Origin: Fidelibacterota bacterium
GTDB lineage: Bacteria > Marinisomatota > Marinisomatia > SCGC-AAA003-L08 > TMED6
Direction: 5' to 3'
Assembly: GCA_014239355.1 (NCBI GenBank)
Contig: JAAZYZ010000077.1
Span: 1 to 23,675 of the forward strand
DNA: 23,675 nt
Translations under genes and position numbers: made by a program
Part shown: positions 13,975 through 22,146 of the stretch, piece after piece
Layout of the letters: every line of letters begins with the position of its first letter
Position numbering within the stretch: position 1 is the first letter of the stretch
Notes under the pieces: generated by a model
What the model saw: the letters and a program-made list of their open reading frames with translations, nothing else
Database searches by the model: none
What the model was told of the DNA's origin: nothing

Positions 13975-14202
13975 TTATTTTCTGCCTCTAGCCATTTTAG
14001 CTCTTGAAACATCACCATCTTTATCGATGAAATATAACCAACCAGATTCTCTAGAAACACCGCATTGAGCAACTACTTCAGCGCCACCGCCTTTGTTAGC
14101 TCCTCTAGCCATTTTAGTTCTAGCAACATTTCCACCTTTATCTAAATAGTATAAGTATCCTGATTCTTTTGATACTCCTGTTGTTTTTACTTTTTCTGCC
14201 AT
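13975..14202 (-). CDS. Small basic two-repeat protein of unknown function, probably highly expressed
   Basis: 75-aa protein made almost entirely of two 26-residue repeats (residues 9-34 and 48-73). Their shared pattern is GVS[KR]ESG[YW]LY[YF][LI]DK.G.V.R.KMARG, with 18 of 26 positions identical. The repeats are joined by a glycine-rich linker. It is basic, has one cysteine (C47), and has no signal or membrane segment. I recall similar 'GYLYFIDKxGDxSRAKMARG' small proteins in diverse bacteria but know no assigned function. Expression signals are unusually strong for this window: AGGAGG (14212-14217 on the plus strand) spaced 9 nt from the ATG, a good sigma-70-like promoter, and its own terminator. 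This argues for an abundant, separately controlled product, perhaps nucleic-acid binding given its charge (inference only). Confidence 0.85.
   Translation of the reverse strand: MAEKVKTTGVSKESGYLYYLDKGGNVARTKMARGANKGGGAEVVAQCGVSRESGWLYFIDKDGDVSRAKMARGRK
13984..14178 (-). repeat. Internal duplication (117-nt period) within the 75-aa protein gene
   Basis: Two coding units, 14101-14178 and 13984-14061, are offset by exactly 117 nt. A 16-nt exact direct repeat (CCTCTAGCCATTTTAG on the plus strand at 13985-14000 and 14102-14117) encodes the KMARG part of each. Elsewhere the copies differ mostly at third codon positions, which suggests an old duplication kept by selection on the protein. Confidence 0.85.
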
Positions 14203-16037: not shown

Positions 16038-16961
16038 TTATTTTAAAACTTCAGGTCGAACACCAAATATATTACTATTTGGATAATTCTGAGTAGAAAG
16101 CCAAAAAACAGACTTAGAACCTATTGCATCAGGAAGGATATCAAATGTTTTCCATAATTCATAAAAATCAGGATCTTTTTGATAAGCTAATGCATAAGTA
16201 GCTGCTGCGGTTGAATCAGCCACACCTTCAATAATCTTTGCTTCTTTATTAGCTGTTGATATGATTAAGTCAGCCTCTCGATCAATTATACCCAAAATTT
16301 CTGAACGTTTTGCTTTACCTTGACCCTCAAATTTTGCAGCTTCCGCCTCTTGTTCACTTGCCATACGATCAAATACTTGAGGCATAATTTTATCATTAAA
16401 TGTTAATCTTTTAATCTCTATACCTATAACTTCAATTCCAATATCAAGTGATTTAAATTCTGCTACAATTGATTCTAATGCTTTACCCATTATCTGATCA
16501 CTATCTATAACAATATCATCAATATATTGAGGAGCAATTTGATCTCTAATTTTTCCATCTAATATTCCATCTAATCGTGATTGAGCTTGTTTCTCATTGT
16601 TTACACTAATATAAAATTTTAAAGGATCAGAAATTCTCCATCTAGCAAAAGTGTCTATAAATATATTAGTTGTTTCTTGCTTTTCTTTTTGTACTGAATC
16701 TCCTGAAGCGCGTTTATCTATCATTCCTTTTGTAGGGACTTCTGTTGCATCACCATCCCACTCCAAAATTCTTTTATCAAACTTAATTACATTTTGTAAA
16801 AAAGGTAATTTAAAAGCAATTCCTGCTTCTGTTTTAGAACTAATTGGTCTTCCAAACTGCAATACTATAGCCTGTTGAAATTCATTAACAATAAAAAATG
16901 AATTCATAGCAAAAACTATAATAAATGGTAAAAATAATATTTTAAAATATTTAAAAAACAT
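16038..16961 (-). CDS. hflC: HflC, SPFH-domain membrane protease regulator
   Basis: Partner of HflK in the large membrane cage that surrounds and modulates the FtsH protease. The protein has 307 aa with one N-terminal membrane helix (about 6-25), then an SPFH/band-7 domain (FQQAIVLQFGRP, FIDTFARWRISDP). A long helical segment rich in A, E and K follows (EQEAEAAKFEGQGKAKRSEI). The C-terminal LWKTFD...FWLST hydrophobic region is typical of HflC. It starts 2 nt after the hflK stop, so the two subunits are encoded together in the usual order. Confidence 0.95.
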   Translation of the reverse strand: MFFKYFKILFLPFIIVFAMNSFFIVNEFQQAIVLQFGRPISSKTEAGIAFKLPFLQNVIKFDKRILEWDGDATEVPTKGMIDKRASGDSVQKEKQETTNIFIDTFARWRISDPLKFYISVNNEKQAQSRLDGILDGKIRDQIAPQYIDDIVIDSDQIMGKALESIVAEFKSLDIGIEVIGIEIKRLTFNDKIMPQVFDRMASEQEAEAAKFEGQGKAKRSEILGIIDREADLIISTANKEAKIIEGVADSTAAATYALAYQKDPDFYELWKTFDILPDAIGSKSVFWLSTQNYPNSNIFGVRPEVLK

Positions 16962-16963
16962 AT

Positions 16964-17974
16964 CTATTTAGATTTATTCTTTTCTTTTATATAATCATCA
17001 AAGTTACTACCCATAGATTGATTTAAACCTAATAAAGGAACTGCCCCTATAGATGGATCCACAAAGTTTAATTGATCCACATTTGAATAAATTTCTTTTA
17101 TTGTTTCAATCATTCTTGTGGTTATGAATACTTGTTTATTTAAAATATATGAATCATATATTTTTAAAAATTTTTGTGTTTCTCCTTCAGAGGTTTGGAT
17201 AGTTCTATATTTATATCCTAATGCTTGATTCTTGATTTTTAATGCTTGACCTCTTGCTTCAGTTAATTTTAATGAACTATCTCGTTCAGCTTGATTAATC
17301 ATTTTTTCCATATTTTGAAGTGCCCGTGCAACTTGGTTATAAGCATCCATAACAATTGATGGTGGTATAACAGATTGTAATTGAACCATTTTAATTGTTA
17401 TACCAGCTTCTAACTTATCAAGTTTTTTTTGCATTAATATTTTTGATTCTTGACTAATCATTTGTCGACCTTCTTTAATCACTTTATCAAAAAGTCTAGA
17501 ACCAACAATTTTCCTCATAACTGATTCTGAAATATCTCTAATTGTACCTTCCACATTTTTAATATTAAACTTATAATCTTTAGGATTAGATATAATATAT
17601 TGTACTTGCCACTTTACTTCTGCTACACTCAAATCATTAGTTAGTGTCCAAGACTCACCTTCGTATGTATTAGAAAAACGTGTTTTTTTACCCGCTTCTA
17701 CAGTTCTAAATCCAAATTCTTCAACAAATTGTTTAGAAGTTTTAACTTTATATACTTCATCTACGATAGGTATTTTAAAATGAAGGCCTGGATAAGAAAT
17801 AGAACTGAATTTTCCTAAACGTAGTAAAACTCCTTGCTCTTCTGCTCTTATTGAGTAGACAGAAAGATAGCCTAAAAGAAGTATGATTACTAAAAAAATT
17901 AATGGAAGAATTTTTTTGAAATCAAATTCTGGAACTTCTACTTCAACATCGCCAAATTGGTATTTTTTATTCAT
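16964..17974 (-). CDS. hflK: HflK, SPFH-domain membrane protease regulator
   Basis: 336-aa SPFH protein with a membrane helix at about 26-45 and the band-7 domain starting at RAEEQGVLLRLGKF. The helical region has VARALQNMEKMINQAERD. It lacks the glycine-rich N-terminal cytosolic extension of E. coli HflK and is therefore somewhat shorter. It is first in the hflK-hflC-hydrolase-MBL run, with a predicted promoter 34 nt upstream. No ftsH gene lies in the window. Confidence 0.94.
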   Translation of the reverse strand: MNKKYQFGDVEVEVPEFDFKKILPLIFLVIILLLGYLSVYSIRAEEQGVLLRLGKFSSISYPGLHFKIPIVDEVYKVKTSKQFVEEFGFRTVEAGKKTRFSNTYEGESWTLTNDLSVAEVKWQVQYIISNPKDYKFNIKNVEGTIRDISESVMRKIVGSRLFDKVIKEGRQMISQESKILMQKKLDKLEAGITIKMVQLQSVIPPSIVMDAYNQVARALQNMEKMINQAERDSSLKLTEARGQALKIKNQALGYKYRTIQTSEGETQKFLKIYDSYILNKQVFITTRMIETIKEIYSNVDQLNFVDPSIGAVPLLGLNQSMGSNFDDYIKEKNKSK

Positions 17975-18894: not shown

Positions 18895-18924
18895 AAAAAG
18901 GCTCTAGTTAATTAGAGCCTTTTT
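18895..18924. terminator. Bidirectional terminator between the DUF2914-like and CHAT genes
   Basis: Perfect 12-bp stem AAAAAGGCTCTA (18895-18906) with 18913-18924 around a 6-nt loop, flanked by A/T runs on both sides, so it works in both directions. It stands 24 nt after the DUF2914-like stop. It contains the stop codon and last codons of the convergent CHAT gene, whose TAG is plus-strand 18904-18906. Confidence 0.9.
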
Positions 18925-20661
18925 TATATCAATAACTAAATGATTTTTAAACTTAAAATCTTTTTTTATTAATTCAAAATTACTATTTCTAGGAAAATTA
19001 GATGGCGAATTATCAAGATAATTATTTAAATGATCTTTATGTATAGGTAGGGACATTTGAAGCAATTCATTGAAATCAATTTTGTAACTTAAATTATTAT
19101 CAATACTAACTATATGAAGAGTAAAAAATTCTTTGAATCCACGCTTATCATATCTTAAATAAACTGAATATTCAATATCATCTTCAAAAAACAATTCTAA
19201 TCTATAAAAATTATCTTTCTTTAATAAAAATGTAGTTAATAAATCTTTATCAAATTTATAAGGGTACTTAACAATCATTTGATTCGTTTCTAAATTATTA
19301 TCAACAGTATCCAAAATCAGCTGAAATTTTTGTCGATAATAAGGAGGCCCACTAGTTAAAGAAAAGTATGGCTTTCCATTTAATTTAATAGAATCACACT
19401 TTAAAGAAATCGGATAATACTTATTTCTAATATCTTTGGACCTAATATCTGTTGGAAAAAAATTATAAAACTCACCCATATTAATGGTTGTATCTTTAAT
19501 TTCAGGGTTAATATTTGAATTATACATAATCTTTAATTCAGTTTGATATTTATTACTATTAAATATATATCTATATGTAAAAATTGATATTAAAATAAAA
19601 GAGATAATAAATATTGACTTAGTAATCATACTTTTTGAATCTTGTGATATTAAATTATTTTTTTTATTAATCGATAATAAGCTTGAACCATATAACTGAT
19701 AAAAACACCATATAATATCTTTATAGCCATTTTTTTTTATCATCTGTTTTTTGGTTAAAAATAAAGACTCACCAGCATCATAGCCATAATGAATGAAATA
19801 CTTATAAAAAATACTACTAAAATCACTAGCTTTATTAGATGGAAGATTTCCCAAACTACAAACAATTGTCTTTGTCCCTTTATTTAAGAATGAACTAATA
19901 AAAGTCATAAATTTTTGTGTGTAATGCCCACAGCTATTAGAAAAAATAAAATCAGAACTTTTTGAACATTTTAAAATATCATCAGTCTGGAAAGTATCAT
20001 CAAAAAGTTTCCAACCATCATTTGCATAGTGCCCTGAAAAATGAAACAATGAACTTGATCCTAATAACTTAATTAATTCAACTTTATCTACATTTCGATT
20101 TTTAAATGGTCCTCTTAAATCAAAATTAGAATCCACAATATTAGCAATATAGCTAGCTTCATCAATAACATCATCCTTAATATCATCTGATTCAGAAGGA
20201 TTGACTACTATGGAAAACTTATTATCTGAACCAATTTTGTATTCATCGTTAACAATATTAGTATTTGTAAATTCTCTTGATAAAATTAAAAAATCAGATA
20301 AAAAATCTTTACCATCATATAACATCTCAAACGGAATAAAATTTAATTCGGTATCTATAATAAGATGTAAATAATGATTTTTATTATCTCTTTTAGCTTG
20401 ATTGAAATATTGCTCAAGTTTAAAAAAATCTAAAAGTTGAAATAATAGATTTGCTGATTTTTTTAATCTTTCTAATTGCTCTCTAGAAGAACCGTTTTTA
20501 ATATAACTATTTAAAATATCATGAGTTATTTTTCTAGATTCTGATTTAATAGAATCTATTGATAAATTAATAGTGATTTTTTGAGAAAATTTAATCGATT
20601 CAGAATTTAATTCTGTATATAATTGATTTTCATTAATTTTGATTAATCGTAAAGTATCCAC
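18904..20661 (-). CDS. Transmembrane CHAT-domain (caspase-like) protease
   Basis: 585-aa protein. Residues about 95-330 form a CHAT domain: LIIDTELNFIPFEML, then LFHFSGHYANDGW with candidate catalytic H211, then FIFSNSCGHY with candidate nucleophile C244. The C-terminal IIWCFYQLYGS strand is typical of CHAT proteins. The N-terminus (1-90) is helical. A membrane helix follows at about 347-366, then a beta-rich domain (about 370-585) I do not recognise. Basic residues before the helix suggest the protease faces the cytosol and the C-terminal domain the periplasm. It is third in a run after an ECF sigma and an anti-sigma-like gene (27-nt gap). It appears to start at GTG without a Shine-Dalgarno, implying low translation. 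Its 3' end is in the terminator stem. Substrate unknown; the adjacent protein is the obvious candidate (inference). Confidence 0.85.
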   Translation of the reverse strand: MDTLRLIKINENQLYTELNSESIKFSQKITINLSIDSIKSESRKITHDILNSYIKNGSSREQLERLKKSANLLFQLLDFFKLEQYFNQAKRDNKNHYLHLIIDTELNFIPFEMLYDGKDFLSDFLILSREFTNTNIVNDEYKIGSDNKFSIVVNPSESDDIKDDVIDEASYIANIVDSNFDLRGPFKNRNVDKVELIKLLGSSSLFHFSGHYANDGWKLFDDTFQTDDILKCSKSSDFIFSNSCGHYTQKFMTFISSFLNKGTKTIVCSLGNLPSNKASDFSSIFYKYFIHYGYDAGESLFLTKKQMIKKNGYKDIIWCFYQLYGSSLLSINKKNNLISQDSKSMITKSIFIISFILISIFTYRYIFNSNKYQTELKIMYNSNINPEIKDTTINMGEFYNFFPTDIRSKDIRNKYYPISLKCDSIKLNGKPYFSLTSGPPYYRQKFQLILDTVDNNLETNQMIVKYPYKFDKDLLTTFLLKKDNFYRLELFFEDDIEYSVYLRYDKRGFKEFFTLHIVSIDNNLSYKIDFNELLQMSLPIHKDHLNNYLDNSPSNFPRNSNFELIKKDFKFKNHLVIDIKKALIN

Positions 20662-20688
20662 AATATAAAATAATAATCAAAAATTATT

Positions 20689-21282
20689 CTAAGAAAGGTT
20701 TATTTTAATATTGCCAACTTCTGATTTTAAAGTTGATACATTAATATAATAAATGCCTGGATTGATTATAAAACTACCTGTATTTCCATTTGATTGAGTA
20801 TATTTTTCAACAGTATGTTTGTTATCTTGAATTATAGAAAATTTTATATTATCTATTTCTTTATCATTCTTAGAAGCTGCCAAATTCATTAAATATTGTC
20901 CTTCTTCCTCTGAACAAACATCACACAGTATATCAAATTCATTCATTTTTTTTGAAAATAATAATGATTTGTCATTACTTCTAGTAACAAATGCTGGATT
21001 AATATCTAGAGAATATTCTTTACCTAAAATAACATCTAGTAATTGGTCTGCTTTTTTAATAGCTACATCCATAAATGTTTTATCCTTTATGTTAGCCATT
21101 TGATAAATTTTTTGTCTTAATTCATATGGAGGAATTTCTTCTGGTTCATTATCAATAAGATTTCCTAGCATTTCAACCTCTAATTGCAAATCGCTATTTG
21201 ATTCAATTAAAGCTTCAAAATCCTTCTTATCTTGATCAGATAATTGTCCTTCTAAGTATCTTAATATTTTATTATTTTCCAT
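20689..21282 (-). CDS. Soluble anti-sigma-like protein between the sigma and CHAT genes
   Basis: 197-aa protein of unknown family. Its first ~45 residues (ILRYLEGQLSDQDKKDFEALI then LEVEMLGNLI) follow the helical pattern of anti-sigma N-terminal domains ('YLdGeLs..e...fE..l'), but without the HxxxCxxC zinc motif. No membrane helix is visible, unlike most ECF anti-sigma factors. The middle (70-135) is helical and holds the only two cysteines as CDVC (C120, C123). The C-terminal part (about 145-197, GSFIINPGIYYINVST) is predicted beta. A good AAGGA precedes the ATG. Position directly after the sigma gene (36-nt gap) supports an inhibitor role; binding to sigma and cleavage by CHAT are inferences. 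Confidence 0.7.
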   Translation of the reverse strand: MENNKILRYLEGQLSDQDKKDFEALIESNSDLQLEVEMLGNLIDNEPEEIPPYELRQKIYQMANIKDKTFMDVAIKKADQLLDVILGKEYSLDINPAFVTRSNDKSLLFSKKMNEFDILCDVCSEEEGQYLMNLAASKNDKEIDNIKFSIIQDNKHTVEKYTQSNGNTGSFIINPGIYYINVSTLKSEVGNIKINLS

Positions 21283-21318
21283 AATTTTTCCTTTGTATAT
21301 ATTATGACAATATAAACT

Positions 21319-21870
21319 CTAATTATCTTGCATACATTTTTTTAATTTTCTATTTGCTCTTGATATAGTGGCTGCAATAGTATTTGGTTTTTGATTAAGT
21401 TTATCAGCAATTTCTCTTTGTTTATAACCCTGACCCACCAAATCCATTATAACTTGCTCTTTATCTTTTAACTTTGACAAACAATACTCTAAACTCAAAT
21501 CATCATTTATATCGGTAGTCTTATTAAAAAGATTATAAGCATCATCAATAGAGCTAGTTTTAGGCCTATATTTCATACCTTTACTCTTTAAAAAAGAAAG
21601 AGTTGTATAGGTAACAATCTGATATAAATAGGAGCTAAACTTACTATCACCTCTAAATTTTCTAAGAGGTTCATATTTACCTTCTAAACCTAATATCTTT
21701 TTTTGGATAATATCTGATACTAAATCTTGTTTGTCTTCGTAAGGAATTTGATCAAATGTTTTTAATGCACCCCAGATAATTTTTTGACATAAATCAATAA
21801 ATATTTTAATCGATTTTTGATCTCGATTAATAACAGAAATTAAAAGTTTATTATCTATTTCTTGATTCAT
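21319..21870 (-). CDS. ECF-type sigma-70 family RNA polymerase sigma factor
   Basis: 183-aa sigma factor with only regions 2 and 4. Region 2 spans about 20-98 (EDKQDLVSDIIQKKI; KFRGDSKFSSYLYQIV is the -10/core-binding part). Region 4 spans about 126-178, with helix-turn-helix YKQREIADKLNQKPNTIAATISRANRKL for -35 recognition. It heads the operon with the anti-sigma-like and CHAT genes. The 48-nt gap to the divergent SelW gene shows no clear sigma-70 boxes and no typical ECF AAC-type -35, so autoregulation cannot be read from sequence. Confidence 0.92.
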   Translation of the reverse strand: MNQEIDNKLLISVINRDQKSIKIFIDLCQKIIWGALKTFDQIPYEDKQDLVSDIIQKKILGLEGKYEPLRKFRGDSKFSSYLYQIVTYTTLSFLKSKGMKYRPKTSSIDDAYNLFNKTTDINDDLSLEYCLSKLKDKEQVIMDLVGQGYKQREIADKLNQKPNTIAATISRANRKLKKCMQDN

Positions 21871-21918: not shown

Positions 21919-22146
21919 ATGAATATACATATTGAATATTGCGAAAAATGAAACTACGGCCCAGAATTTGATCGTGTATCAAAAATTATAAAGAAGTATG
22001 CTCCTGAATCTCAAATAGAGGGAAATGAACAATACCCAAGAAGCGGAGCATTTGAAATTACTCTTGATAATGAATTAGTCTATTCAAAATTTGAAACAAA
22101 CAAATTTCCATCAGAAGAAGAAATACAAAGTATTTTAAATAGCTAA
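21919..22146 (+). CDS. selW: SelW-family (Rdx) selenoprotein with in-frame UGA (selenocysteine)
   Basis: 75-residue protein if UGA at 21949-21951 (codon 11) is read as selenocysteine. The N-terminus is MNIHIEYCEKU, giving the CxxU redox motif (C8, U11) after a beta strand, exactly where SelW/SelT/SelH proteins carry it. After the UGA the frame stays open for 64 codons and shows the family pattern: EGNEQYPRSGAFEITL, then NELVYSKFETNKFP, a final helix, and a TAA stop. A bacterial-SECIS-like hairpin follows the UGA. Thioredoxin-fold thiol oxidoreductase activity is the family expectation; the partner is unknown. The start has a weak AAGG 8 nt upstream. The 3' end overlaps the PepC-type gene tail-to-tail by 12 nt. 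Conserved codons after the UGA argue against a pseudogene. Confidence 0.9.
21967..21983 (+). promoter_or_regulatory. Bacterial SECIS-like hairpin downstream of the SelW UGA
   Basis: TTTGAT-CGTGT-ATCAAA forms a perfect 6-bp stem with a 5-nt loop. The loop begins 21 nt after the UGA and has G as its second base. Bacterial SECIS elements need a small stem-loop about 16-37 nt after the UGA with a G among the first two loop bases. The lower stem is AT-rich and not extended perfectly, so the exact fold is uncertain. Confidence 0.65.

Follow-up and report, generated by a model that had tools for sequence, protein, structure and literature searches.

A three-gene unit for an ECF sigma factor, a soluble protein, and a CHAT protein

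We analyzed a 23,675-nucleotide (nt) stretch of DNA from a Fidelibacterota bacterium (assembly GCA_014239355.1, contig JAAZYZ010000077.1), which in its whole length is called the window here. Its minus strand carries a unit of three genes that encode an extracytoplasmic function (ECF) sigma factor, a soluble protein of 197 amino acids (aa), and a CHAT protease-like protein with a predicted membrane helix. An earlier reading made from the letters of the DNA alone (the sequence-only reading) had described three genes running in one direction with intergenic gaps of 36 and 27 nt, and the coordinates of the open reading frames (ORFs) confirmed this layout. The features of the unit and of its surroundings are listed in Table 1.

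Table 1. Features of the three-gene unit and of neighboring genes (window coordinates unless a locus is named).
Feature	Position	Strand	Basis or remark
ECF-type sigma-70 factor, 183 aa	21319..21870	minus	TIGR02937
Soluble two-domain anti-sigma-like protein, 197 aa	20689..21282	minus	AlphaFold2 model and family profile
N-terminal anti-sigma-like domain, residues 1-62	21097..21282	minus	profile comparisons
C-terminal immunoglobulin (Ig)-like beta-sandwich, residues 70-196	20695..21075	minus	
Candidate scissile bond R101-S102 in flexible loop (prediction)	20977..20982	minus	low pLDDT and conserved Arg
CHAT protease-like protein with membrane anchor (585 aa; start codon GTG)	18904..20661	minus	PF12770
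Predicted catalytic His211 codon	20029..20031	minus	His in 41/41
Predicted catalytic Cys244 codon	19930..19932	minus	Cys in 41/41
Membrane helix, residues 341-368	19558..19641	minus	AlphaFold2 helix
Beta-rich C-terminal domain (residues 375-585), predicted to be extracytoplasmic	18907..19539	minus	AlphaFold2 strands
hflK-hflC	16038-17974	minus	also in L001, L002, L003, L020, L021, L022, L025
Small divergent gene	L020 6231-6698; L021 6487-6966; L022 10130-10594; L023 6185-6721; L024 9347-9883		

The product of the first gene is an ECF sigma factor, as had been read from the sequence: it scored 57 bits against TIGR02937 (sigma70-ECF; cut-off 42.9) and 29.4 bits against Sigma70_r4_2 (cut-off 25.7). 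The Sigma70_r2 score of the window copy was 17.9 bits, under the cut-off of 24, and those of the two relatives tested were 37.7 and 25.9 bits. A profile of the sigma family matched solved ECF sigma structures with a best E of 7.7e-18.

The third protein matched the CHAT family PF12770 with 38.9 bits (cut-off 24). Its AlphaFold2 (AF2) model, with a mean predicted local distance difference test (pLDDT) score of 87.5, shows a caspase/separase-type fold and matches the structures of separase and Csx29. H211 and C244 are invariant in all 41 aligned CHAT homologues, and from its sequence the protein is predicted to be a protease. The intact His-Cys pair and the single membrane helix that had been noticed in the sequence thus held up on the family match, the alignment and the AF2 helix; the hydropathy peak falls at residues 344-362. 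In the protein search, which scored the 7991 candidates sharing most words, 37 CHAT proteins were among the matches listed and the H and C motifs are present in 36 of them, the remaining one, P0037, reading HFAGH and SNACD on visual inspection. The 41-row alignment leaves out P0003, P0007 (a 421-aa piece) and P0037 (P0001 is the window protein), and alignments A3-A7 leave out L001 and L003, the latter with ambiguous bases. The flank of the helix on the CHAT side has the more positive charge in 35 of the 41 proteins, an equal charge in five and a less positive one in one.

Behind the helix, a PEGA domain was recognized in G183 (29.6 bits; cut-off 20.8) and just below the cut-off in G182 (20.1 bits) among five divergent relatives scanned. 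The Pfam scan of the CHAT protein gave no tetratricopeptide repeat (TPR) family at E <= 1, and only 67 residues precede the CHAT match. By eye, the CHAT part of the distant CHAT protein P0037 (738 aa) is followed by a hydrophobic helix and, after it, by TPR repeats, possibly a second kind of outer domain on the same membrane-CHAT plan. The start codon of the CHAT gene is GTG in 7 of 10 loci, and it may limit the amount of the protease relative to its substrate.

The middle protein was modeled by AF2 as four helices followed by a beta-sandwich (best of five models, mean pLDDT 85.1). It has no match above cut-off in Pfam or NCBIfam, and no stretch resembling a membrane helix: the best 19-residue Kyte-Doolittle mean is 0.8 in the window protein and at most 1.39 across a 65-row alignment of the family, which is a selection of the listed homologues.

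Conservation of the unit across the phylum

The close relatives that carry a name are mostly from Marinimicrobia (Fidelibacterota). We scanned 245 genomes of this one phylum, which are assemblies of unstated completeness. The CHAT family profile, with at most five candidates scored per genome, matched nine genomes at E <= 0.001; the profile of the 65-row alignment gave full-length matches to the middle protein in nine genomes (208-291 bits); and the sigma subtype reached 197-298 bits in nine genomes, the next best genome scoring 74. The nine genomes are identical in the three scans, so that none of the three turned up at full length in the absence of the others, and the three-gene set is beyond chance. 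The sequence-only reading had suggested checking whether sigma factor and inhibitor always occur together with CHAT and whether the genes stay together in relatives, and this is what we found, with order and strand the same throughout and two genes intervening in G182.

The order sigma, middle gene, CHAT is that of three relatives from genome contigs (L001-L003) as well, where the gaps measure 36-38 and 27-28 nt. Order and strand are also kept in the six divergent genomes G178-G183, even though the identity of the middle protein to that of the window is only 19-23%, the value varying with the alignment used. The middle gene stands directly behind the sigma gene in 10/10 loci (gaps of 13-38 nt), and its distance to the CHAT gene is 4-28 nt in four of the divergent genomes, 256 nt in G181 and 3068 nt in G182, where two minus-strand genes lie between. 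This last arrangement would suit an ordinary ECF sigma factor that happens to stand beside two unrelated genes, but such a chance neighborhood is contradicted by the finding of all three genes in one identical set of nine genomes out of 245 and by an order that is kept despite the low identity of the middle protein between the two clades (21-23%), and we regard it as highly improbable.

A search with the six divergent middle proteins returned eight proteins, and the three that carry an organism name are from Marinimicrobia/Fidelibacterota; the protein searches were word-based, so that more distant relatives may escape them. The CHAT protein of a relative found 2 of 72,556 plasmid records, one from Azotobacter and one from Leptospira. 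No sigma factor is present among the six annotated features of the Azotobacter record, whose gene table is incomplete. The Leptospira plasmid NZ_CP092665.1 has a CHAT-like stretch at 47480-48244, with no gene listed there, that is 24% identical to the CHAT protein of the relative.

Relation of the middle protein to anti-sigma factors

In a scan with the single sequence the middle protein matched the anti-sigma model NF052375 only weakly (E 0.075), and zf-HC2 (PF13490) was not matched at E <= 1 by the window protein or by the five divergent relatives scanned; the relation became clear with family profiles. Over the 245 genomes the profile of the middle family hit 68 further places, all below 28 bits and with partial coverage, mostly of the N-terminal third of the profile. 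In 11 of 11 loci examined (L036-L046, which are among the best 12 of these 68 places by E-value) the gene that matches the N-terminus of the middle protein comes immediately after an ECF sigma gene, which the sigma profile recognizes with E 5e-14 to 1e-11. At the twelfth place (G002:C43 13615-14326) 5 nt separate the end of a sigma match from the match to the N-terminus, and at G001:C4 2161-2806 a gene with a similar N-terminus comes immediately after an ECF sigma match. The small genomes G001 and G002 each have, in this way, another ECF sigma match with a gene of this kind behind it.

The 11 proteins encoded at L036-L046, which are membrane anti-sigma-like proteins, have hydropathy peaks of 1.78-2.58 (19 residues) that start at residues 91-99 in 11/11. 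Pfam was run on ten of them and zf-HC2 was above cut-off in one and below it in seven more; NCBIfam was run on five, four of which matched NF052375 (best E 1.9e-10, all under cut-off). We then reversed the comparison by building a profile from nothing but residues 1-75 of the 11 membrane proteins and searching 211 ORFs from the window and its relatives with it. The E-values were 1.7e-9 for the middle protein of the window, between 5e-10 and 6e-7 for its three close relatives and between 2e-5 and 5e-4 for three divergent ones; the top-ranked match falls within a training locus. The middle protein thus has its N-terminal domain in common with membrane proteins encoded behind ECF sigma genes. On these sequence comparisons it is most likely an anti-sigma of the membrane type of the phylum in which the anchor and outer tail have been swapped for a soluble domain. 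The description of a soluble protein with an anti-sigma-like N-terminus, given in the sequence-only reading, agrees with the hydropathy and with the shared domain.

A candidate cleavage loop in the putative inhibitor

In the AF2 model of the putative inhibitor, residues 98-102 are the sole residues with pLDDT below 50. The loop contains Arg101, which is aligned as Arg in 135 of 137 sequences, the remaining two carrying TRG shifted by a gap, and which is the only near-invariant basic residue. The residue aligned after it is S, G, T, N or A. This alignment took in all 128 listed homologues (120 listed of 151 found, and 8 more); L003, with ambiguous bases, was omitted. D2151 of separase reads an Arg at P1, and in TPR-CHAT a Lys takes the place of this Asp (PMC9729208). 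The bond between Arg101 and the small residue is a plausible scissile site for CHAT, judged from the model and the alignment.

Proposed switch and competing explanations

In type III-E CRISPR (clustered regularly interspaced short palindromic repeats) systems, Csx30 binds and inhibits an ECF sigma factor, and the CHAT protease Csx29 cuts a small flexible loop in the C-terminal domain of Csx30 (PMC10028731). The cut was proposed to relieve inhibition, and in lysates of Escherichia coli the N-terminal fragment was detected only when its end had been blocked (PMC10028731). Because the same three roles recur in the present unit, with a flexible loop in the inhibitor and a protease tied to the membrane and provided with an outer domain, we propose that an envelope signal acts through CHAT and leads to a cut near Arg101. 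The N-terminal helices of the 197-aa protein would hold the ECF sigma factor inactive and its C-terminal beta-sandwich would be the part read by the protease. CHAT would span the inner membrane, its protease domain facing the cytoplasm and its beta-rich sensor lying outside, and a signal from the outer side would activate it. The activated protease would then cut the exposed loop of the sandwich, with R101-S102 as the predicted bond, the N-terminal fragment would fall apart or be degraded, and the freed sigma factor would transcribe its regulon. This model builds on the gene set, its co-inheritance, the shared anti-sigma-like domain and the invariant catalytic pair, together with the fold of the AF2 model and the predicted helix.

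We consider this explanation, a stand-alone switch from envelope to transcription in which CHAT cuts a soluble anti-sigma and so frees an ECF sigma factor, on the whole probable. A reading that goes further is more tentative and falls a little short of being probable: a CRISPR-free proteolytic switch whose single-pass membrane CHAT would both sense a signal from the envelope and cut the soluble anti-sigma at the near-invariant Arg of the loop, as a chromosomal housekeeping counterpart of the Csx29-Csx30-sigma module and possibly a model for its origin.

Several results weigh against the proposed switch. The other four AF2 models of the inhibitor reached a mean pLDDT of only 70.5-73.8, so that one of five is above 74. 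The reverse profile was weak for G182 (E 0.056) and not significant for G181 (0.95), G178 was unlisted, and two unrelated ORFs of the window received E 7e-4 and 1.4e-3. When six other ECF sigma factors of the phylum were chosen by the sigma alone, the genes behind four of them matched weakly (E 0.017-0.41) and those behind two were not below 1, so that this domain is not a marker of all anti-sigmas. The window CHAT is among the five proteins with equal net charge on the two flanks of the helix. Position 272 of CHAT, which we take to be the equivalent of separase D2151 (an uncertain placement, made by motif), is not a conserved acid: it is K in 16, N in 8, D in 8, E in 4 and another residue in 5 of the 41 proteins. 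Finally, the N-terminal part of cut Csx30 remained bound to sigma in one type III-E study (PMC9729208), and therefore release of the sigma factor may need further degradation.

A rival explanation is a tether without proteolysis: the beta-sandwich would dock on the membrane CHAT protein, the two together would form a split membrane anti-sigma, sigma would be released by a change of conformation, and other proteases (e.g., FtsH, with HflKC next door) would degrade the inhibitor. The His-Cys pair, invariant in 41/41, would be needless for a pure scaffold, and the conserved Arg loop is left unexplained; we consider the tether unlikely. Alternatively, CHAT may cut another substrate, an envelope protein or a death effector, and belong to the regulon, its link to the sigma/anti-sigma pair being one of co-regulation only. 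A CHAT protease was reported to cut a bacterial gasdermin (PMC9729208), but no gasdermin-like gene was noticed in our loci when these were viewed by eye, with no dedicated search, and the constant direct neighbors of CHAT are the sigma factor and the inhibitor (10/10 loci), whereas its other neighbors vary. This explanation seems to us less probable still than the tether.

If the proposed switch is true, a single step by a caspase-type protease would control transcription from across a bacterial membrane, where a site-1/site-2 cascade is the usual route, the sigma switch of type III-E CRISPR would have counterparts outside CRISPR, and CHAT proteases would gain a housekeeping role in uncultured marine bacteria. 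The small soluble protease-substrate pair, with a predicted cleavage bond, would also be directly testable.

Relation to CRISPR and phage defense

The CHAT fold is common to the unit and Csx29, and Csx29/Csx30/sigma operates in a CRISPR system (PMC10028731), which together would fit a Csx29-like module for phage defense or cell suicide. The window, however, has no array-like repeat and no Cas family among its proteins scanned. Cas1 was not found in seven of the nine genomes that carry the unit; it is present in two, on contigs other than that of the unit. PADLOC gave no match at E <= 1 to CHAT or the inhibitor; the sigma factor matched three PADLOC models through its helix-turn-helix part. Most loci have similar neighbors, and the unit is kept in small genomes (G001-G003, 1.1-1.5 Mb) that have 2-4 sigma-family matches each, the sigma factor of the unit included. 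A defense function of this kind is very unlikely in our judgment, and the unit looks like a chromosomal regulator rather than a mobile set of defense genes.

The parallel with Csx29/Csx30/RpoE without CRISPR, drawn by the sequence-only reading, held for the proposed roles, the general layout and the lack of a tie to CRISPR but not for sequence. The sigma factor scored 35.8 bits against the type III-E sigma model NF041236, under the cut-off of 100, and no match of the inhibitor to Csx30 was found in NCBIfam or among PDB sequences, libraries whose coverage of Csx30 is uncertain. The analogy is one of roles and layout because the sigma factor is under the type III-E cut-off and no relation to Csx30 was found.

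Comparison with known systems

Caspase-fold proteases near ECF sigma factors are not new in principle, as type III-E systems, metacaspase operons, EACC2-caspase genes and DdvS/DdvA show. With type III-E Csx29/Csx30/CASP-sigma (RpoE) the present unit has in common the three proposed roles and an inhibitor of two domains, the C-terminal one of which bears a flexible loop. The present CHAT differs in having a membrane helix and an outer domain, where Csx29 has TPR and RNA-guided activation, and the window differs in having no recognized Cas gene or array.

DdvS/DdvA of Myxococcus xanthus are an ECF sigma factor and its anti-sigma (PMC4374960), and PDB entries 8rot and 8rw5 are titled as the transmembrane anti-sigma factor DdvA. 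DdvA carries a CHAT-like part within the anti-sigma chain, whereas in the present unit the two are encoded by separate genes in 10/10 loci. Metacaspase operons with sigma factors were described in Myxococcus, Fibrobacter and others (PMC3501461), and EACC2-caspase genes with an ECF sigma factor and DUF1822 (PMC8195603). In both cases the gene of a caspase-fold protease stands beside a sigma gene, DUF1822 being the third partner in the EACC2 case, but the protease is a caspase or metacaspase and not CHAT, and the excerpts of these two papers name no anti-sigma of the present architecture.

Like the membrane anti-sigmas of the RseA/RsiW type, the inhibitor has an anti-sigma-like N-terminal domain, and in both cases sigma would be freed by proteolysis, which for the present unit is proposed. 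Anti-sigmas of that type are cut through the site-1/site-2 protease scheme. The present inhibitor differs in having no membrane helix, and the neighboring gene codes for a CHAT-type protein that has a membrane helix of its own. RseA/RsiW-type membrane anti-sigmas are named in the type III-E work (PMC10028731). In a literature search that covered few subscription journals, we found no description of a unit of sigma factor, anti-sigma-like protein and membrane CHAT.

Surroundings of the unit and minor observations

The neighboring proteins of the window that were scanned belong mostly to housekeeping families (ParA/ParB type, PurA, SecD, SecF, MiaA, DAK2/DegV, PlsY, BamA-like, HflK, and HflC). 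Judged from gene order, hflK-hflC adjoin the unit in 8 of 10 loci (the window, G001-G003, G178, and G181-G183), their identity being backed by a family match for the window pair and for HflK of four relatives; they were not seen within the stretches of G179 and G180 around the unit. A convergent gene sits between CHAT and hflK in seven of these eight loci and was DUF2914-like in the two copies tested, one of them above cut-off. HflK and HflC are modulators of the FtsH protease. Their proximity may be functional, with FtsH finishing off the cut inhibitor, or mere synteny.

A common promoter for the sigma factor, GAA...TCTWA upstream of the sigma gene, was considered and set aside: it was present in 3 of 10 loci vs ∼0.29 expected from simple shuffles, in none of the window clade, and the pattern had been picked after viewing the sequences. 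By eye, the stretch upstream of hflK is similar across relatives, and no counterpart was noticed upstream of sigma.

Just upstream of the sigma gene, five of the six divergent relatives have a small divergent gene, perhaps AbrB/MazE-like to judge by eye; its L020 copy had no Pfam match. In the window, an Rdx/SelW-type gene (21919-22146, plus strand) is divergent from the sigma gene. It has an in-frame TGA at the CxxU position and matched PF10262 with E 3.4e-18 when the TGA was read as selenocysteine; a strong hairpin 3' of the TGA was not found (z 0.47), and L001-L003 share the TGA context by eye. Farther away, between BamA-like and metallo-beta-lactamase-type genes, lies an imperfect direct repeat of 77 nt (window 13985-14178) with 75% identity and 117-nt spacing.

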